Positions 1,529-31,487 of a DNA stretch of 64,000 nt are shown here, piece by piece. Numbering within the stretch: the first letter of the stretch is position 1; each line of letters opens with the position of its first letter. The notes beneath the pieces are model-generated. The model was not told where the DNA came from. It did no database searches and worked only from the letters and a program-made list of their open reading frames with translations. Source of the stretch: Paramecium tetraurelia (taxonomy: Eukaryota; Ciliophora; Oligohymenophorea; Peniculida; Parameciidae); contig NW_001799622.1 of NCBI RefSeq assembly GCF_000165425.1, forward strand, positions 124,001 through 188,000. The letters are read 5' to 3'. The position numbers and the translations under genes were made by a program.

Positions 1529-4500
1529 TCATCTTTTTTTCTATGCAATTTGGATTATATTTTGGTTCAAATATCTTTTGGGAGATATTAATAATAATGA
1601 TGTTTAACAAGTCCCTATTGAATCCACTTACATTTTCAATAATAATCTTCCTAAAATCCAAATGATTGACAATCCCAGCACTCCAACACTCAGGATAAAT
1701 ATCATCAAAGTTTCCTTGTAGATTGACAAAGACTTATCGAATTATTCCTGGGCAGTTGTGACAACTTTATCGTATGCTTCAACTAAGATGTCACTTCCAT
1801 AATCAATGTAAATGGTGTGTTCTAAACCATCGAAGAAGTCACTCAGATGCTCTTGAGTGCTATTCCCATAATTATTGTAAAAGAACTAAGGATAAGATTC
1901 AATAATTTTGTTAATTTGAGTGATCAAATATTTCATCCCATGATGGTAGTATTGAATGATGTTAGGATTATGAAGATAAGTCTATGTTTCATTGCACAGG
2001 ATTCCCACAGATTACAAACAAATATCATCCTAATTTAAAGCTTCTAGATTTGTCTTTAATTATTGATCACTTATAATTGAGACGAAGTTATTGTTGAACT
2101 CTATGAATTGATCTTGTTTATCACTTCTTAATTCTTAAGAATAATTGATAAATTACACTTGACTCATAATGTTTATGAATCTCTCTTAATCATAAGTCTG
2201 ATAACTTATTAGATCCATATTATGGATTATGTTCATAAAAGAAGATTGAGCCAATTTAAAATTAAATAACAAATCTATGTTAGCTAGTAACTATTAGGAA
2301 AGTACGAAAATAACAAAGAAGATAATCAAGAAGTAAGCCAGAATAACAAAGAGTCCTATCAACAAAATAATAATGTATCTGGTTTGATTGATATGCTACC
2401 GTTTTAACTTTTCGTATAATTTATATTTATTTTTCTTATTGTTTGTATTCAAAAGCTAGGTTTAACTTTGATCCGTTAGTTGTTGATTATGGTATTGCAT
2501 ATTCTCAACGCTACTCTCAAACATCCTTGTTTCTGAAACGAAATCAATCAACATCCATTCATATAAGGATTTCTTAAAAATTGATTACACTTACTCATAT
2601 GTCTCGATCTCATCCTGTACTTCATATATTTACAATTTCATAACAACTTTGTATAATCTACGATGATCGTTAGATAATCTTGAGATTAATGGAATTTATA
2701 GAAATTGCAATAGCATAACCAGAAAGAAGATTACAACCATATAAATGGTCAATAATTATTGGGTTTATTCTTCATTTGTTATTTTATCATCGTAACAATA
2801 GTTAAATGCTAAATGTGGTAATTACCCAATTTCCTCTAAATTAGCAACAGCAATTTGAGTAATACTTGGATTCAGTAACGTATTATTTCTAATTTTATAA
2901 AATTGGGCTAAACTCATTTAAATAGTCTCTTATAACGTTGGTTTTTGGATTAATTCATCCTCAACATTGTAAAATTAATTTACACTAAACTCTACCTAGT
3001 TGATATCAAATAATTAATTGCTTTGCAAATTGATGAAGTCCTGCAAACCTAAGTCTACCTATTATAAATAGAACAATCTCATCTTTACATCCATTTGGAA
3101 TTAAGAATCCAATTCTATACGATACAGTCCATGTGTAATTTAGGAGTAGGCTTTTTAGGTAGACAACATCAAATCTATTAGATTGAGACAATCTCCAAAA
3201 TCATATTTCTGGTACACAGCTATGGTCAGTAGAATGATATAGCCTACAATTAAGAATAAGACAATGTAAAGCAGATATTTTTGTACTCTAAATGTAGTTG
3301 GGTTTATGAAATCTTCAATTTTTTATAAGGTCGATTTATAATTAGAATCAAATAATTTTAGGTTTTCTGAATATTTGACTTAGTATTCCTCTTAGATTTA
3401 TTATTATGATGCTCGACTGTCCATAGCCAATTTGCTGTCATTTTCATTAAAGAAATCTTATTATTTTTTCTTAGCAAATGCTTTGGAATTCATAGTAGTG
3501 ACTTACTTTTCTGTGTTTTTAATTAAAGATTCTTATGAATTGAGAGTAAACTTTTATTGAATTTCAACTTCATCACTTCGACTAGATAATAATTGAGCAT
3601 TATCCATTTACTTAAAAGGACTGGATAATTGATCCAACTTTTATGAGTCTATGTAGATGTCTTCAAAGTAATGAGAGGGATGTGATGGAAATAGATAATT
3701 GGTCACTTCAGCATCATGATCACTTCTTTATTCACTGATATTTCCCTAGACGCTAATGGAATCTTCAGTTTACAATTGCTATTCTATTAACTACCGTTTA
3801 GATTGATAGTTTTAGAAGGTTTGTTTAATCGTGTCTCTCACTTATCTTTTGTATCCCATAGTTGTCAGTAGTAATTATTCATTCACAATTAATTCAATTA
3901 AGAACATTTACTATTTCAAATCAATATCATTCTTTTTGTATCTATACTCTTCATAATTAACTGAATAGTAAACTGGTACAGGATTGAAATCCTGAGGAAC
4001 AATTTTTTCAATGTATTTTGTGTACTTATCCTAATAGATTTTCTCTGCTCTTGTTTTAAGTTATTCACTGTCTTCTTCACTTGGAATGGAAACTTAGGTT
4101 TAAGATTGTGGTTTGACTGAAGTCTTCTACATTTCTGATTGTCTAGTTGTTCCAAATTGCAATGCTTGATGTCTTTTCAAATGTTCATCATAGAAAAATG
4201 CACACAACTTCTCATTAAAAATGCTAACTGCCTATTAGACACTGACCGAATCACTCTCTTGATCATACTTCTACCCCTTATACTAACTACCACTTGAGAA
4301 GTTGTTGGATTAAACGCGAGTATCATCTATAATCTTCTACAAGGCCTTTTCATATTATTACACAAACAAATGCAAGTCCTCTGGAACAAATAAGTAGGTC
4401 TCTTTATTACTAACCACATTGTTACTATTCTCTAAATCAATCAAATTTGGATATCTATTTTTTGGAGGTGTCTCACCATCCATCAAATATTCAATCCCTG

Positions 4501-17998: not shown

Positions 17999-18970
17999 TC
18001 AATTTAATCTGAAATATTGAATCTAATGGTATTGTTTTGTATGAACAGATAATTTTAAATCTATGAGATCTTCTGAAATAAATTTCATTGCCAAAGATCC
18101 TAAATTATGATTGTAAGTCTATTATACCTTTCAACTTATCCCCTTTGGAGGCAGGTATTTCTTCATTGAAGTAGAGAATGACTGGTTTCCAGAAGGGAGA
18201 CTTGGATGGACCCATGATGACATCGATTGGTAAGTGGGTGAAGGTGAATGAATATTTCATCCATATAATTACTCCTGTAACGAAGTCTTGTCGATTGATT
18301 TGAACTTGATAGGAGTTACTAAAGGACAGATCTTCGAGTGTGCATTTCATCAAGTCGACCTCATAAATTAAGACAGGATCACTATTTAATTAGTCTTATC
18401 TAATGCTTTCTAGTAGAGGCTCATGCTTGACCCATCGTTTCATCCACTTCATGTTAACTCCATAGACGGAATCCCTTATTATAGGGGTAGGAAAGCATAC
18501 CAAAATGTCAATTTTTATTCACGGTATTCTCCATCTTCAATTGACTGAAGTAACAATTAACCTTTGTCTGGCAAGATGAGTCCGTCTTTATTGAGGTATT
18601 TGTCTCTGGCTGCGATTAACTCCTGGATGTTTCCTCTGTAGAAGAGCAAGTTGCCCATCCAGGCAGAAATGATGATATCGACCTTGCATTCTAATTCAAC
18701 TTCCTTGATGGACTTTTTGTGTAGGGTGACGTTGTTGACGTTGTTCTATTCAATGATTTTTTGTGCATGATCGTGTGATTTCATGGCGAATACTTGTTTG
18801 GCACCGGATCTACTAAGAATCACAGGGATGAGGCCAAGCCCAGCATTGAGATCCAATATCACTTTGTCTTTGAAGAGATGTTTGTTGCGAGTGATTGCGT
18901 TGAGGAATGGCTGGATGCGATTTTAATCCTTGAGGATATCCTCGTCATTGAGAAAATTGTTACAATCCAT
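17999..18970 (-). CDS. PRMT-like protein, predicted catalytically inactive
   Basis: 305 residues aligning by eye along the whole protein arginine methyltransferase fold. Introns are 18475-18500 (26 nt, AAG acceptor) and 18100-18127 (28 nt). Recognisable blocks: [25 protein letters not shown] (motif I), [21 protein letters not shown] (double-E loop region), [24 protein letters not shown], and a beta-barrel ending [12 protein letters not shown]. Key residues are replaced. Motif I is DLNAGLG instead of D-x-G-x-G-x-G. The ribose-binding acid after motif I is Lys (FAMKSH). Both glutamates of the double-E loop are gone (SAWMG...FYRG instead of SEWMG...YES). The THW loop reads PFWK. The N-terminal YFxxY helix is not evident. 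It is probably a pseudo-enzyme or regulatory partner. Start codons of this gene and the C2H2 gene are 10 bp apart. Confidence 0.85.
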
Positions 18971-18983
18971 TTTAATTAAAATG
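18968..18983. promoter_or_regulatory. Palindromic divergent start region
   Basis: The sequence CATTTTAATTAAAATG is a perfect 16-bp inverted repeat holding the start codons of both divergent genes, with only TTTAATTAAA between them. Any promoter for either gene must therefore lie in or beyond the other gene's first codons. Confidence 0.75.
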
Positions 18984-19972
18984 TCTGAATTTCCATGTGA
19001 TACTTGCGAAAAGCAATTCAAACTAAAAAGAACATTGGAAGCTCACAAAATGATACACACTGGAGAGAAACCCTACGAATGGTATAAAATAACTTATTTA
19101 AATATGGAAAAGTGCTCAGTGTCAACAACGCTTTAGACAATATTCCTCCCTACAAAAGCATCAAAGAACACACTCTGGAGCTAAACCATATGAGTGTGAG
19201 GAATGCAAATAGGCTTTCTCCCAAGTATATAAGTACCAGATTTTATTAGATCTCCAATTTGAAGAGACACTAACGCAAACATTCCAATGAAAAACCCTTC
19301 AAATGCGAGGAATGTGGAAAACAATTCATCACCAGTCAAAATTACTAACAACATAATTCAAAACATCAATAGGATCGAAAATAATATAAATGCGAAAGTG
19401 GCTGTGGCAAAACTTATTTTTATATGTGCAGTTTAAAGAAACATGAAAAGGAAATGCATCAGAAAAAAGAAAAACCCATATTCACCACTGAATCCTATAA
19501 TCAATAAATTAAAAACCTCAAGGATTTCTTCACATGCAACCATCCTCAAGTAATACACAAAAATCATGTTGATGTACTCTTCAATGGATGCCTGTACTAT
19601 TACAACGAAGGTAATAAAATATCATAACTAGAAAATCAAAAAATTGAATATCACGAGCTTGTTGATGGTGGCAAACTAGAATGCGACCCAGTCAAAGATC
19701 ATTAGCATTTCCAAAAGAATCAACAATTTGCATAGATCGATTGTTCACAATGTCCCCAAGAAGTCAATTGCTGTTTAGCCACAAACCAAGGCAACATCCA
19801 AGAATCAGAATATCCCCAATCCTATGTCTTACATTATCATGGCCCTAACTGCGGACACCCCATAGTCTTGCACAACGGCCACGTCGATTATCTAGTCAAT
19901 GAGATGCTTCATTACCCTCATGATGGACATTGCGATAACCACGGAATTCTGAATAGAATCACAGTATAATGA
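18981..19972 (+). CDS. C2H2 zinc-finger protein with five fingers
   Basis: 311 residues. Introns are 19082-19112 (31 nt, AAG acceptor) and 19225-19249 (25 nt); both lie inside fingers and restore the C-x2-C...H-x3-H spacing. Five consecutive fingers occupy residues about 4-155. They start [40 protein letters not shown] and [12 protein letters not shown]; the last has a C-x4-C spacing. The linker after finger 1 is the canonical HTGEKPYE and those after fingers 2 and 3 are close variants ([16 protein letters not shown]). The C-terminal 150 residues hold further Cys/His clusters, for example [13 protein letters not shown] and [15 protein letters not shown], which may bind metal but match no finger I know. 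The likely role is a nuclear DNA- or RNA-binding regulator. Confidence 0.9.
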
Positions 19973-19999: not shown

Positions 20000-22055
20000 A
20001 TGTCATTAAGAAGCGTTGTCGAAATCGTAACTCATGTCGAGAGTTTTAGAAACGTCGATCTCTACTACCAAGGTGTTTATTTCCTCAGAATCACTATCCA
20101 CAATGATGCCCCCCAAGATGTACACCCATCAATCCANNNNNNNNNNNNNNNNNNNNNNNNNNNNNNNNNNNNNNNNNNNNNNNNNNNNNNNNNNNNNNNN
20201 NNNNNNNNNNNNNNNNNNNNNNNNNNNNNNNNNNNNNNNNNNNNNNNNNNNNNNNNNNNNNNNNNNNNNNNNNNNNNNNNNNNNNNNNNNNNNNNNNNNN
20301 NNNNNNNNNNNNNNNNNNNNNNNNNNNNNNNNNNNNNNNNNNNNNNNNNNNNNNNNNNNNNNNNNNNNNNNNNNNNNNNNNNNNNNNNNNNNNNNNNNNN
20401 NNNNNNNNNNNNNNNNNNNNNNNNNNNNNNNNNNNNNNNNNNNNNNNNNNNNNNNNNNNNNNNNNNNNNNNNNNNNNNNNNNNNNNNNNNNNNNNNNNNN
20501 NNNNNNNNNNNNNNNNNNNNNNNNNNNNNNNNNNNNNNNNNNNNNNNNNNNNNNNNNNNNNNNNNNNNNNNNNNNNNNNNNNNNNNNNNNNNNNNNNNNN
20601 NNNNNNNNNNNNNNNNNNNNNNNNNNNNNNNNNNNNNNNNNNNNNNNNNNNNNNNNNNNNNNNNNNNNNNNNNNNNNNNNNNNNNNNNNNNNNNNNNNNN
20701 NNNNNNNNNNNNNNNNNNNNNNNNNNNNNNNNNNNNNNNNNNNNNNNNNNNNNNNNNNNNNNNNNNNNNNNNNNNNNNNNNNNNNNNNNNNNNNNNNNNN
20801 NNNNNNNNNNNNNNNNNNNNNNNNNNNNNNNNNNNNNNNNNNNNNNNNNNNNNNNNNNNNNNNNNNNNNNNNNNNNNNNNNNNNNNNNNNNNNNNNNNNN
20901 NNNNNNNNNNNNNNNNNNNNNNNNNNNNNNNNNNNNNNNNNNNNNNNNNNNNNNNNNNNNNNNNNNNAACAACCACCCCAATAATTATTAGACAAGAATT
21001 TGGGAGTAGAACATAGATAGAAAAGTGAGAAAATGAGATTAGAAACCAAAGTTCAAGAATTAGGAGTTGAAGATTTGAATTCATTTCCAAAAACAGATAC
21101 ACAACCAATCATCTTTGAAGAATTCACTCCCAGAGAAGATAAAGATAAAAATGAAGAAAATATAGTAGATGCAGACATAACCAATAGTGAATATGACATT
21201 ATGTCATATCGAGGCATTCATTTGATAGTACTGGTTCATGGTTTTCAAGGCAACTCATATGACATGAAATTATTTAAGAACTACATATCATTAGCACATC
21301 CTGAAGCCATGTTTTTGTGTTCATCAATAAATGAAGAAAACACTGAGGGCAACATCCAAGAAATGGGAGAAAAACTAGCTACTGAAGTCATCAATTTCAT
21401 ATCTGAAAATTGTCCAGAAAATACTTTAGGTAGATTAAGCTTTATTGGACATTCATTAGGAGGAGTTATAATCAGAGCTTCCTTACCCTATCTAGATAAA
21501 TACTAAGATAAGATGTACACTTACATTAGTCTTTCATCTCCACAATTAGGATACTATTATAATGCTAGTAAGATTGTTGATGCTGGCATGTGGGTATTGA
21601 AGTAATGGAGAAAAAGCAAATGTTTAGAATAGTTACAAATGACTGATAATAGAAATATTGAAGAAACATGTCTCTAAAAACTTGCCTTGGCTAAAGGATT
21701 CGCTTGGTTTAAAAATGTCTGCTTTTTCAGTTGCATCTAAGACAGTTATGCTCCTTATGATTCTGCCAGAGTACAACTCTCAAAAGAGGCCCTTGAAGAT
21801 TAGTATTCATATATATGTTATAAATTTAAGGAAGAATAAACCATACGTTTAGATGGTCAAAGCATTATTGAGGCATCTTGAAAACACAAATGTTTATAGA
21901 ATTGATGTCAATTTTGAGATTTAAGAAAAGTATTTATTTCCATCAAATATAGAAACCTTGATACACTGATAGGCAGAACTGCGCATATTCAATTCTTAGA
22001 ATGTTAACCCCTATTAAGAATGATTGTCAGTCTATATGATCAATTCTTCTGTTGA
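20000..22055 (+). CDS. FAM135: FAM135 lipase-like (DUF676) protein, interrupted by an assembly gap
   Basis: The N-terminus MSLRSVVEIVTHVESFRNVDL matches the FAM135 N-terminal domain (F-x-NVDL-x2-G-x-Y-x-I). An 831-base N gap follows. After the gap the alpha/beta-hydrolase part reads HLIVLVHGFQGNSYDMKL, LSFIGHSLGG (nucleophile Ser in GHSLG), YTYISLSSPQLG and SARVQLS. A C-terminal NLDTLIGRTAHIQFLE matches the conserved NTLIGRAAHI of FAM135. Introns are 21803-21830 (28 nt, AAG acceptor) and 21930-21952 (23 nt). FAM135 proteins are cytosolic or ER-associated putative lipid hydrolases of unknown substrate. Because of the gap the total length and central introns cannot be given. Begins 27 bp after the C2H2 gene's stop, same strand. 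Confidence 0.9.
20137..20967. other. Assembly gap (831 N)
   Basis: Run of N inside the FAM135-like gene. Six-frame open frames crossing it have no meaning. Confidence 1.
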
Positions 22056-30204: not shown

Positions 30205-31487
30205 GTTAACTGATAAATTAATAATAATTTTATGAGAAATTTAGTATATTTATTCTTATATAGAATAATTGTGATATTTGACTACTCTGATTAAACTTCA
30301 TAAACTCAAGGTTAAGATCTATTTTAATTGATTAGAAGTATGTCATACCAAGAAAGTGTTTTTATTCTATAAAAGAAGTTAGTAAAATTTAATAAAATTG
30401 TTGATTAGTTTATATATAAAGACCCCATATAACATTCAAATTTTAATATTTCTTTTTATTGAAATAATAACCACCTTATCAGGCATAATAACTCTATCAG
30501 GATAATTATTTTATAATATATATATAAATAGTATATTTTTACTTTATTACTGTTTTTTTGGAGCCACATCATATTCAAATAACTCTGACCACTCAAGCTT
30601 ATTTTAAGAATATAGTTTTTGTTCGAAAAGGATTTGTATTAATGAATGTATGCATTATAGAAGAAATAGAAGTAAATAAATAAATGAACATCCATTTCCC
30701 TGAATTTGATTAAAAGTTGCAAAGAAATGAATTGTTTAATAAATTTAATATGAGTATTTATAGCTCAAAAGGTGGTTATATAATCTTAAGAATAATCAAT
30801 TTAATTAATTATTTTAAATGAATGAGTCTCAATTAAAAATAAATGATAAGTATTTGATAAATGAATTCGAAGATTATTAAAATCATTACACTCCATTTAT
30901 TTGATCTTTATAAGTTTGAATTAAAAAGAGAAAATGATTTTAGGAAATATGATCAAATTCTTGATTAATAATAAATTGTTAATAGAAAATAGTTAATTGA
31001 ACATTTTATTCTTACCAATATCNNNNNNNNNNNNNNNNNNNNNNNNNNNNNNNNNNNNNNNNNNNNNNNNNNNNNNNNNNNNNNNNNNNNNNNNNNNNNN
31101 NNNNNNNNNNNNNNNNNNNNNNNNNNNNNNNNNNNNNNNNNNNNNNNNNNNNNNNNNNNNNNNNNNNNNNNNNNNNNNNNNNNNNNNNNNNNNNTTATAT
31201 AATGTTTTAAATCGCATGTCATCATCCATAAAAATTAATAAAATTTTAATTTAGGGAAAATCATCAAATTACACCCATAATAAACACTAAAATAGCTGAA
31301 ATAGCAACCGCGCATTCGCAAATAGATCATATGTGCTTTTATGACTAGATAGATACAAATATTTAAAAGGGGCTTTATAAATTAGAATTATCTTATTATA
31401 TAAAAATAAAGATTTACTTGGAGCTTAGGAATATTAAAATGAAATATTTGTTTATATATACTTTAAATAAAAATAAATAATTAATTA
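30205..31487. other. Long AT-rich intergenic region containing a gap
   Basis: About 1.28 kb with an N run at 31023-31194. Several frames are open for 100 or more codons because only TGA stops, but none shows a domain, clear start or consistent introns. I do not call a gene here. It includes the upstream regions of the coiled-coil (-) and ANP32-like (+) genes. Confidence 0.5.
31023..31194. other. Assembly gap (172 N)
   Basis: Run of N in an intergenic region. Confidence 1.

Follow-up and report, generated by a model that had tools for sequence, protein, structure and literature searches.

A 10-bp AT-rich spacer between head-to-head start codons in Paramecium tetraurelia, a candidate shared initiation region

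Among described systems, the nearest case to the locus reported here is the AT-rich initiator of Giardia lamblia. TSS-seq in this organism revealed an AT-rich initiation consensus, and no link was reported there between symmetry and bidirectional firing (PMC3792122). The likeness lies in a somewhat symmetric, AT-rich start element of about 10 bp, with variants that include AAATTAAAATG and ATTTTAAAATG, in short 5' UTRs, and in some two-way initiation at a single nucleotide between adjacent genes (PMC3792122). Giardia is, however, a distant lineage, and its starts were mapped by TSS-seq, whereas those considered here are predicted from sequence (PMC3792122).

Within P. tetraurelia itself, Cap-Seq data for 10,087 genes gave 5' UTRs of 21.7 nt on average, with a median of 19 nt (PMC5485702). 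Such a median, together with overlapping UTRs in a compact genome, would explain how a 10-bp spacer can be workable; by contrast with the present locus, the text available from that study mentions neither a symmetric element nor a count of head-to-head spacers (PMC5485702). A bidirectional promoter has also been used in a Paramecium transgene, where one genomic region drove two divergent genes in a construct, but the fragment described was about 1.9 kb long, versus a 10-bp spacer here (PMC4937312). Regarding the initiation machinery, TFIIA, TFIIB, TFIIE and TFIIF were reported as undetectable in Paramecium by sequence similarity (PMC12716044). Our literature search returned no paper linking Paramecium with TTAATTAA and, for head-to-head genes, no title on Paramecium gene pairs among the matches listed.

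The gene pair and its 10-bp spacer

The window analysed here is a stretch of 64,000 nucleotides (C203:124001-188000), and the genome searched amounts to 69.07 Mb in 231 contigs. Its long frames under the ciliate code, its introns of 22-30 nt and the presence of duplicate blocks are in keeping with the Paramecium aurelia group. The locus under study comprises the following features:

17999..18970, minus strand: PRMT-like gene, from the gene finder, with Pfam PRMT_C and predicted introns at 18100-18127 and 18475-18500
18968..18983, no strand: 16-bp palindrome CATTTTAATTAAAATG, an exact match, with both start codons inside
18971..18980, no strand: 10-bp spacer TTTAATTAAA, separating both start codons
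18972..18979, no strand: core TTAATTAA, present in the duplicate locus despite the loss of one spacer T
18981..19972, plus strand: C2H2 zinc-finger gene, from the gene finder, with predicted introns at 19082-19112 and 19225-19249 and a possible intron at 19611-19631

These genes form a divergent protein-coding pair whose start codons lie less than 1 kb apart, i.e., a head-to-head pair, as indicated by gene models and paralogues. The original prediction held that one 16-bp palindrome contains both ATGs, with only 10 bp between them, and this was confirmed on both counts: the palindrome is exact, and the starts are backed by paralogues and by the gene finder. The minus-strand ATG is the CAT at 18968-18970 and the plus-strand ATG lies at 18981-18983, so that the palindrome ends with the two start codons, and symmetry stops at 18968 and 18983. 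The PRMT_C region was tested on the window copy of the PRMT-like family, whose protein matched PF22528 (PRMT_C, beta-barrel/oligomerisation region) with an E-value of 1.3e-33. The C2H2 protein matched PF00096 above the Pfam cut-off in four stretches (E 5.8e-21).

Genes were predicted using an intron-aware finder trained on 233 kb, made up of the window, the duplicate block L003 and a further 16 stretches of 10 kb each. The first settings over-split the DNA (262 genes in 233 kb); the stricter settings used here gave 128 genes, and the strictest gave 113. The 102 complete genes among these 128 had a mean coding sequence of 1287 nt and 2.30 introns per gene, about 2.3 being published for the species (PMC5485702), and 215 of the 235 predicted introns measured 22-30 nt. 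Both window starts were called exactly, even without start-context scoring. It should also be noted that 30 of the 235 predicted introns in the sampled genes (about 1 in 8) end in AAG; two such introns fall within the PRMT-like/C2H2 pair, and that of the C2H2 gene retains its AAG end in the duplicate. Also within the C2H2 gene, GTAATAAAATATCATAACTAG measures 21 nt in the window (19611-19631) and 22 nt in the duplicate (L003 4883-4904). The 22-nt version must be an intron, since the reading frame would otherwise be lost; the window version, whose length is divisible by three and which contains no stop codon, is readable either as coding sequence or as an intron. Runs of N occupy 20137-20967 (831 bases) and 31023-31194 (172 bases) of the window, the first of which breaks the gene adjoining the C2H2 gene.

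The PRMT-like gene has two deeper paralogues, located on C42 and C165 (71% and 67% identical to the window copy), which open at the same Met as the window gene (MDNLNDEE.. and MDNLADEE..). An upstream exon or an earlier PRMT-like start was rejected on the basis of this shared Met and of the interval from the upstream stop to the ATG, which holds no in-frame ATG. Regarding the C2H2 gene, its duplicate starts with MTEFACDTCEK, with TGA stops in the frame upstream. The frame in the window is open upstream as far as an ATG at 18783, but a longer C2H2 gene was rejected because of these stops in the duplicate. By inspection, the C2H2 start also fits a CxxC finger beginning at residue 6.

Both genes are under coding constraint. 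Comparison of the C2H2 gene with its duplicate gave a pN of 0.083 and a pS of 0.615 (pN/pS 0.135), the first intron being spliced differently in the duplicate model and in the window gene, a discrepancy that would, if anything, raise pN. The PRMT-like gene compared with its C42 paralogue gave a pN of 0.181 and a pS of 0.816, which is saturated (pN/pS 0.22). The gene pair is real and head-to-head, in a very compact, AT-rich macronuclear genome.

From the start codons and their spacing, initiation is indeed confined to the spacer or to the neighbour's coding sequence, as originally proposed; a start site 19 nt upstream of either ATG would lie 9 nt within the other gene. The further argument, that the lack of room calls for an unusual promoter, was overstated with regard to P. 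tetraurelia 5' UTRs (mean 21.7, median 19 nt; PMC5485702). Since leaders that short are normal in this species, the 10-bp spacing is no paradox and requires no special promoter.

Divergent pairs were counted in a 224-kb sample composed of the window and 16 stretches, 15 of them arbitrary and one picked for the second palindrome. This sample contained 32 pairs, with a spacer of at most 10 bp in 3, at most 50 bp in 7 and at most 100 bp in 13. The three 10-bp pairs are that of the window, which is the finding itself, one on C34, fetched for its palindrome, and one on C22, which came from the arbitrary stretches. The C22 pair (L010 3613-10000; 10-bp spacer, CATTTAAATTAATATG) joins a ROK kinase gene (Pfam) to a long gene that seems to encode a P4-ATPase whose C-terminal part is guanylate-cyclase-like. 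Calling the C34 pair required both the looser setting and start-context scoring; without such scoring, the window and C22 pairs were called and the C34 pair was not. At a stricter finder setting, the 10-bp spacer was found in 2 of 29 pairs because the C34 minus start shifts, by 167 bp at the strictest setting (113 genes). This start is conserved in its duplicate (MSSTNRAFRMKQ), and the corresponding protein has no Pfam match.

Genomic occurrence of the palindrome and fate of the spacer in duplicates

When one mismatch was allowed, CATTTTAATTAAAATG had a single match in the window, where shuffles expect 0.05. The exact 16-mer occurs at two places genome-wide, in the window and at C34:122048, each at predicted head-to-head starts, the plus-strand gene of the C34 copy encoding an M15 peptidase. 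Two copies are approximately what a random draw of AT-only spacers would yield, because CAT-W10-ATG occurs at 1005 places in the genome, with 1005/1024 expected for any given AT-only spacer. Palindromic spacers numbered 0 among the 50 matches listed of these 1005 places. A special 10-bp spacing was rejected, as genome-wide counts of CAT-Wn-ATG dropped smoothly from spacing 9 to 11, without a spike at 10 (1162, 1005 and 818 places for spacings 9, 10 and 11; 549, 325 and 315 for letter-reversed control patterns). A preference for symmetric centres in CATTTTN4AAAATG was likewise rejected, a palindromic centre being present in 3 of the 50 matches listed of 51 places, and the reverse word order AAAATGN4CATTTT was commoner, with 118 places versus 51. 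Under a site-independent model built from 108 start contexts, the probability of a palindromic 10-bp spacer was 0.0098 and that of a spacer equal to TTTAATTAAA was 2.5e-4.

As to an association with head-to-head starts, the C34 copy alone counts as independent evidence, because the window copy was found through its position. Among the other W10 places of the sample, 1 of 8 (C22) was at head-to-head starts, and the chance of the C34 copy falling at such starts is about 1 in 8. Apart from C34, the first 20 CATTTTN4AAAATG places of the listing were taken with flanks of about 242 bp and gave 0 head-to-head calls, with a finder of low sensitivity under the same settings (1 of 3 known pairs at 250-bp flanks).

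The window locus has a duplicate on C182 (L003), in collinear pieces 84-89% identical and with the same gene order. The spacer region of this duplicate, CATTTAATTAAAATG, has one T fewer, with loss of the palindrome and an intact TTAATTAA. The original prediction had considered a shared symmetric element to be contradicted by loss of the palindrome in relatives that share the gene order; in this duplicate within the genome, the strict palindrome is gone. Symmetry may perhaps no longer be selected there, because the PRMT copy has decayed. The duplicate of the C22 locus (C216) carries the same 15-mer as C182, CATTTAATTAAAATG, and that of the C34 locus (C55) carries CATTTAATTAAAGT. The C22 member itself reads TTAAATTAAT, one change from the exact core, and symmetry is missing in both C22 and C216. 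A shared element as such is not contradicted: TTAATTAA was found in the closest duplicates of all three 10-bp pairs (3/3), and it is over-represented just upstream of starts (see below).

To the extent visible in the fetched stretches, every one of these three duplicates has retained one start and lost the opposite gene to decay. On C182, the PRMT-like gene is a relic (L003, about 3700-4244), made of fragments with a stop and with no gene called, and its C2H2 partner appears intact. The M15 peptidase has decayed on C55, with no protein match in 1,048 bases, and so has the ROK kinase on C216, with a 9-residue match in 501 bases. Identity upstream of the retained start, in bins of 1-12, 13-33 and 34-63 bp, was 0.92, 0.86 and 0.60 for C203/C182, 0.83, 0.81 and 0.67 for C22/C216, and 0.83, 0.48 and 0.40 for C34/C55, where conservation is limited to the spacer (only 10/21 at 13-33 bp). 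When the three pairs were pooled, identity was 31/36 at 1-12 bp and 45/63 at 13-33 bp, versus 327/644 at 34-240 bp. At A/T reference sites only, it was 31/36 and 38/48 versus 235/376 (one-sided Fisher p 0.0026 and 0.015, respectively). These conserved bins argue that the spacer, together with the first codons of the lost neighbour in two of the three cases, behaves as the leader and core promoter of the survivor, and the footprints beside retained starts may partly be due to the mode of decay of AT-rich DNA. In the window, the corresponding feature is:

18948..18980, plus strand: conserved stretch upstream of the C2H2 start, 0.86-0.92 identical in the duplicate versus 0.50-0.69 farther out, the PRMT copy having decayed there

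Judged from its sequence conservation, this stretch is a candidate core promoter and leader of the C2H2 gene, and it extends over approximately 7 codons at the start of the PRMT-like gene.

Around deeper paralogues, namely C42 and C165 for the PRMT-like gene and C176 and C80 for the C2H2 gene, the stretches read contained neither the other gene as a neighbour nor the spacer; the spacer was also lacking from the P4-ATPase-like paralogues on C215 and C187. Deeper paralogues of the PRMT-like and C2H2 genes, and of a putative AMP-deaminase-like gene, sit on different contigs. Since deeper paralogues have neither the pairing nor the spacer, the three 10-bp pairs probably formed or survived separately.

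The octamer near start codons

With both palindrome pairs excluded, 5 of 107 starts carry a TTAATTAA whose first base lies at -12..-7, against a dinucleotide-shuffle mean of 0.93, and 0 of 400 shuffles reached 5. The count was 5 of 108 starts without start-context scoring, and each of the remaining 6-bp intervals held 0-2 occurrences. Related tests gave 7 for TAATTAA (shuffle mean 1.65, 0/400), 3 for TTAATTAA at -12..-8 (0.63, 11/400), 10 for TAATTA (4.66, 9/400), 11 for AATTAA (6.24, 17/400) and 8 for TTAATT (4.29, 22/400). The excess at starts is suggestive, because -12..-7 was picked after the profile had been seen and among six motif/interval tests. It should also be noted that A is favoured at -1 to -3 of starts. 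The octamer is not a general promoter motif, as so few starts carry it exactly; this frequency was scored for the exact octamer, and a Giardia-type consensus would be expected near most starts.

The octamer was also compared at CAT-W9..11-ATG places, where clear head-to-head starts were found at 1 of 7 places with TTAATTAA and 0 of 7 without, so that the two groups were not separated. One more of the seven TTAATTAA places was unclear, and was uncalled after 585 bp had been added. In this comparison, flanks were of about 300 bp, a range in which the finder is also of limited sensitivity, recovering 2 of 3 known pairs with 350-bp flanks. Cases were chosen by eye among the matches listed, and controls were the next-listed places without TTAATTAA, C5:269487 being skipped for its TAATTA; the control L071 contains TAATTA once the A of its ATG is counted.

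A proposed shared initiation region and competing explanations

The best-supported reading of these sequences, to which we attribute a probability of approximately 0.55, is that a minimal AT-rich initiation region with a TTAATTAA core serves both genes. We infer a transcriptional role for this region, with one copy acting in both directions. From a mechanistic point of view, the 10-bp spacer and the first 20 bp or so of each neighbour's coding sequence would constitute one shared initiation region. The 5' end of each mRNA would fall within the spacer or a few codons into the other gene, with a leader of about 0-30 nt, and both transcripts would overlap in antisense at their 5' ends. The functional part would be the AT-rich core, TTAATTAA or near it, at most about 10 bp from the start codon. 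As TTAATTAA is its own reverse complement, one copy would be positioned almost identically relative to either start codon. Perfect 16-bp symmetry would result from equal padding of the core by T and A on its two sides and would not itself be needed; exact symmetry is probably incidental.

The main rival to this shared region, a quite possible one, is a chance juxtaposition of two A-rich start contexts. The two genes would then have separate promoters, each lying within the coding sequence of the neighbour, the spacer would act as leader or translation context, and the palindrome would be one AT-only spacer of many. Such a coincidence is in line with the two genomic copies, close to the expectation from the 1005 CAT-W10-ATG places, with the palindromes counted among the matches listed (0/50 of the 1005 places and 3/50 of the 51 CATTTTN4AAAATG places), with the lack of a spike at spacing 10 and with the preference for A at -1 to -3. 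Against it stand the duplicates, which retain the spacer above the level of surrounding A/T sites. Both exact copies moreover lie at predicted head-to-head starts, versus 1/8 of the other sampled W10 places, a comparison in which only C34 counts and would do so by chance about once in 8. As for a strictly symmetric bidirectional element, on which a dimeric factor or the initiation machinery would use the full 16-bp palindrome and fire equally both ways, the perfection of the palindrome speaks in its favour, as does its sole other genomic copy, likewise between two predicted head-to-head starts; we nevertheless consider it very unlikely, symmetry having been lost in the same-order duplicate (C182) and in both members of C22/C216.

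It is also highly improbable that the C2H2 gene alone is expressed, with a PRMT-like copy in decay, of which the start codon merely persists next to the C2H2 promoter. The relic state of the C182 duplicate would fit such a scenario, as would the window protein itself, which, by inspection against PRMT motifs, presumably lacks the catalytic double-E (two glutamates expected) and the N-terminal YFxxY. Against it, the window copy is open, spliceable and constrained (pN 0.18 versus a saturated pS of 0.82 with the C42 paralogue). The degenerate motif state is, furthermore, common to both deeper paralogues (L023 on C42 and L024 on C165), and is therefore old. With three copies, purifying selection and the catalytic motifs apparently missing, this is likely a pseudoenzyme family.

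Returning to the shared region with its TTAATTAA core, a broader proposal can be put forward tentatively, and we hold it to be rather doubtful: TTAATTAA within about 10 bp of a start codon might be a minimal initiation element, which head-to-head genes would share across spacers of 9-11 bp, thus defining a class of compact bidirectional promoters that retain the octamer after loss of a partner. To our knowledge, Paramecium core promoters have hardly been described. At this locus, with 10 bp between start codons, all possible leaders and core elements are restricted to a very short stretch, amenable to mutagenesis of every single base. The duplicates in which one gene was retained provide, in addition, a natural deletion series.
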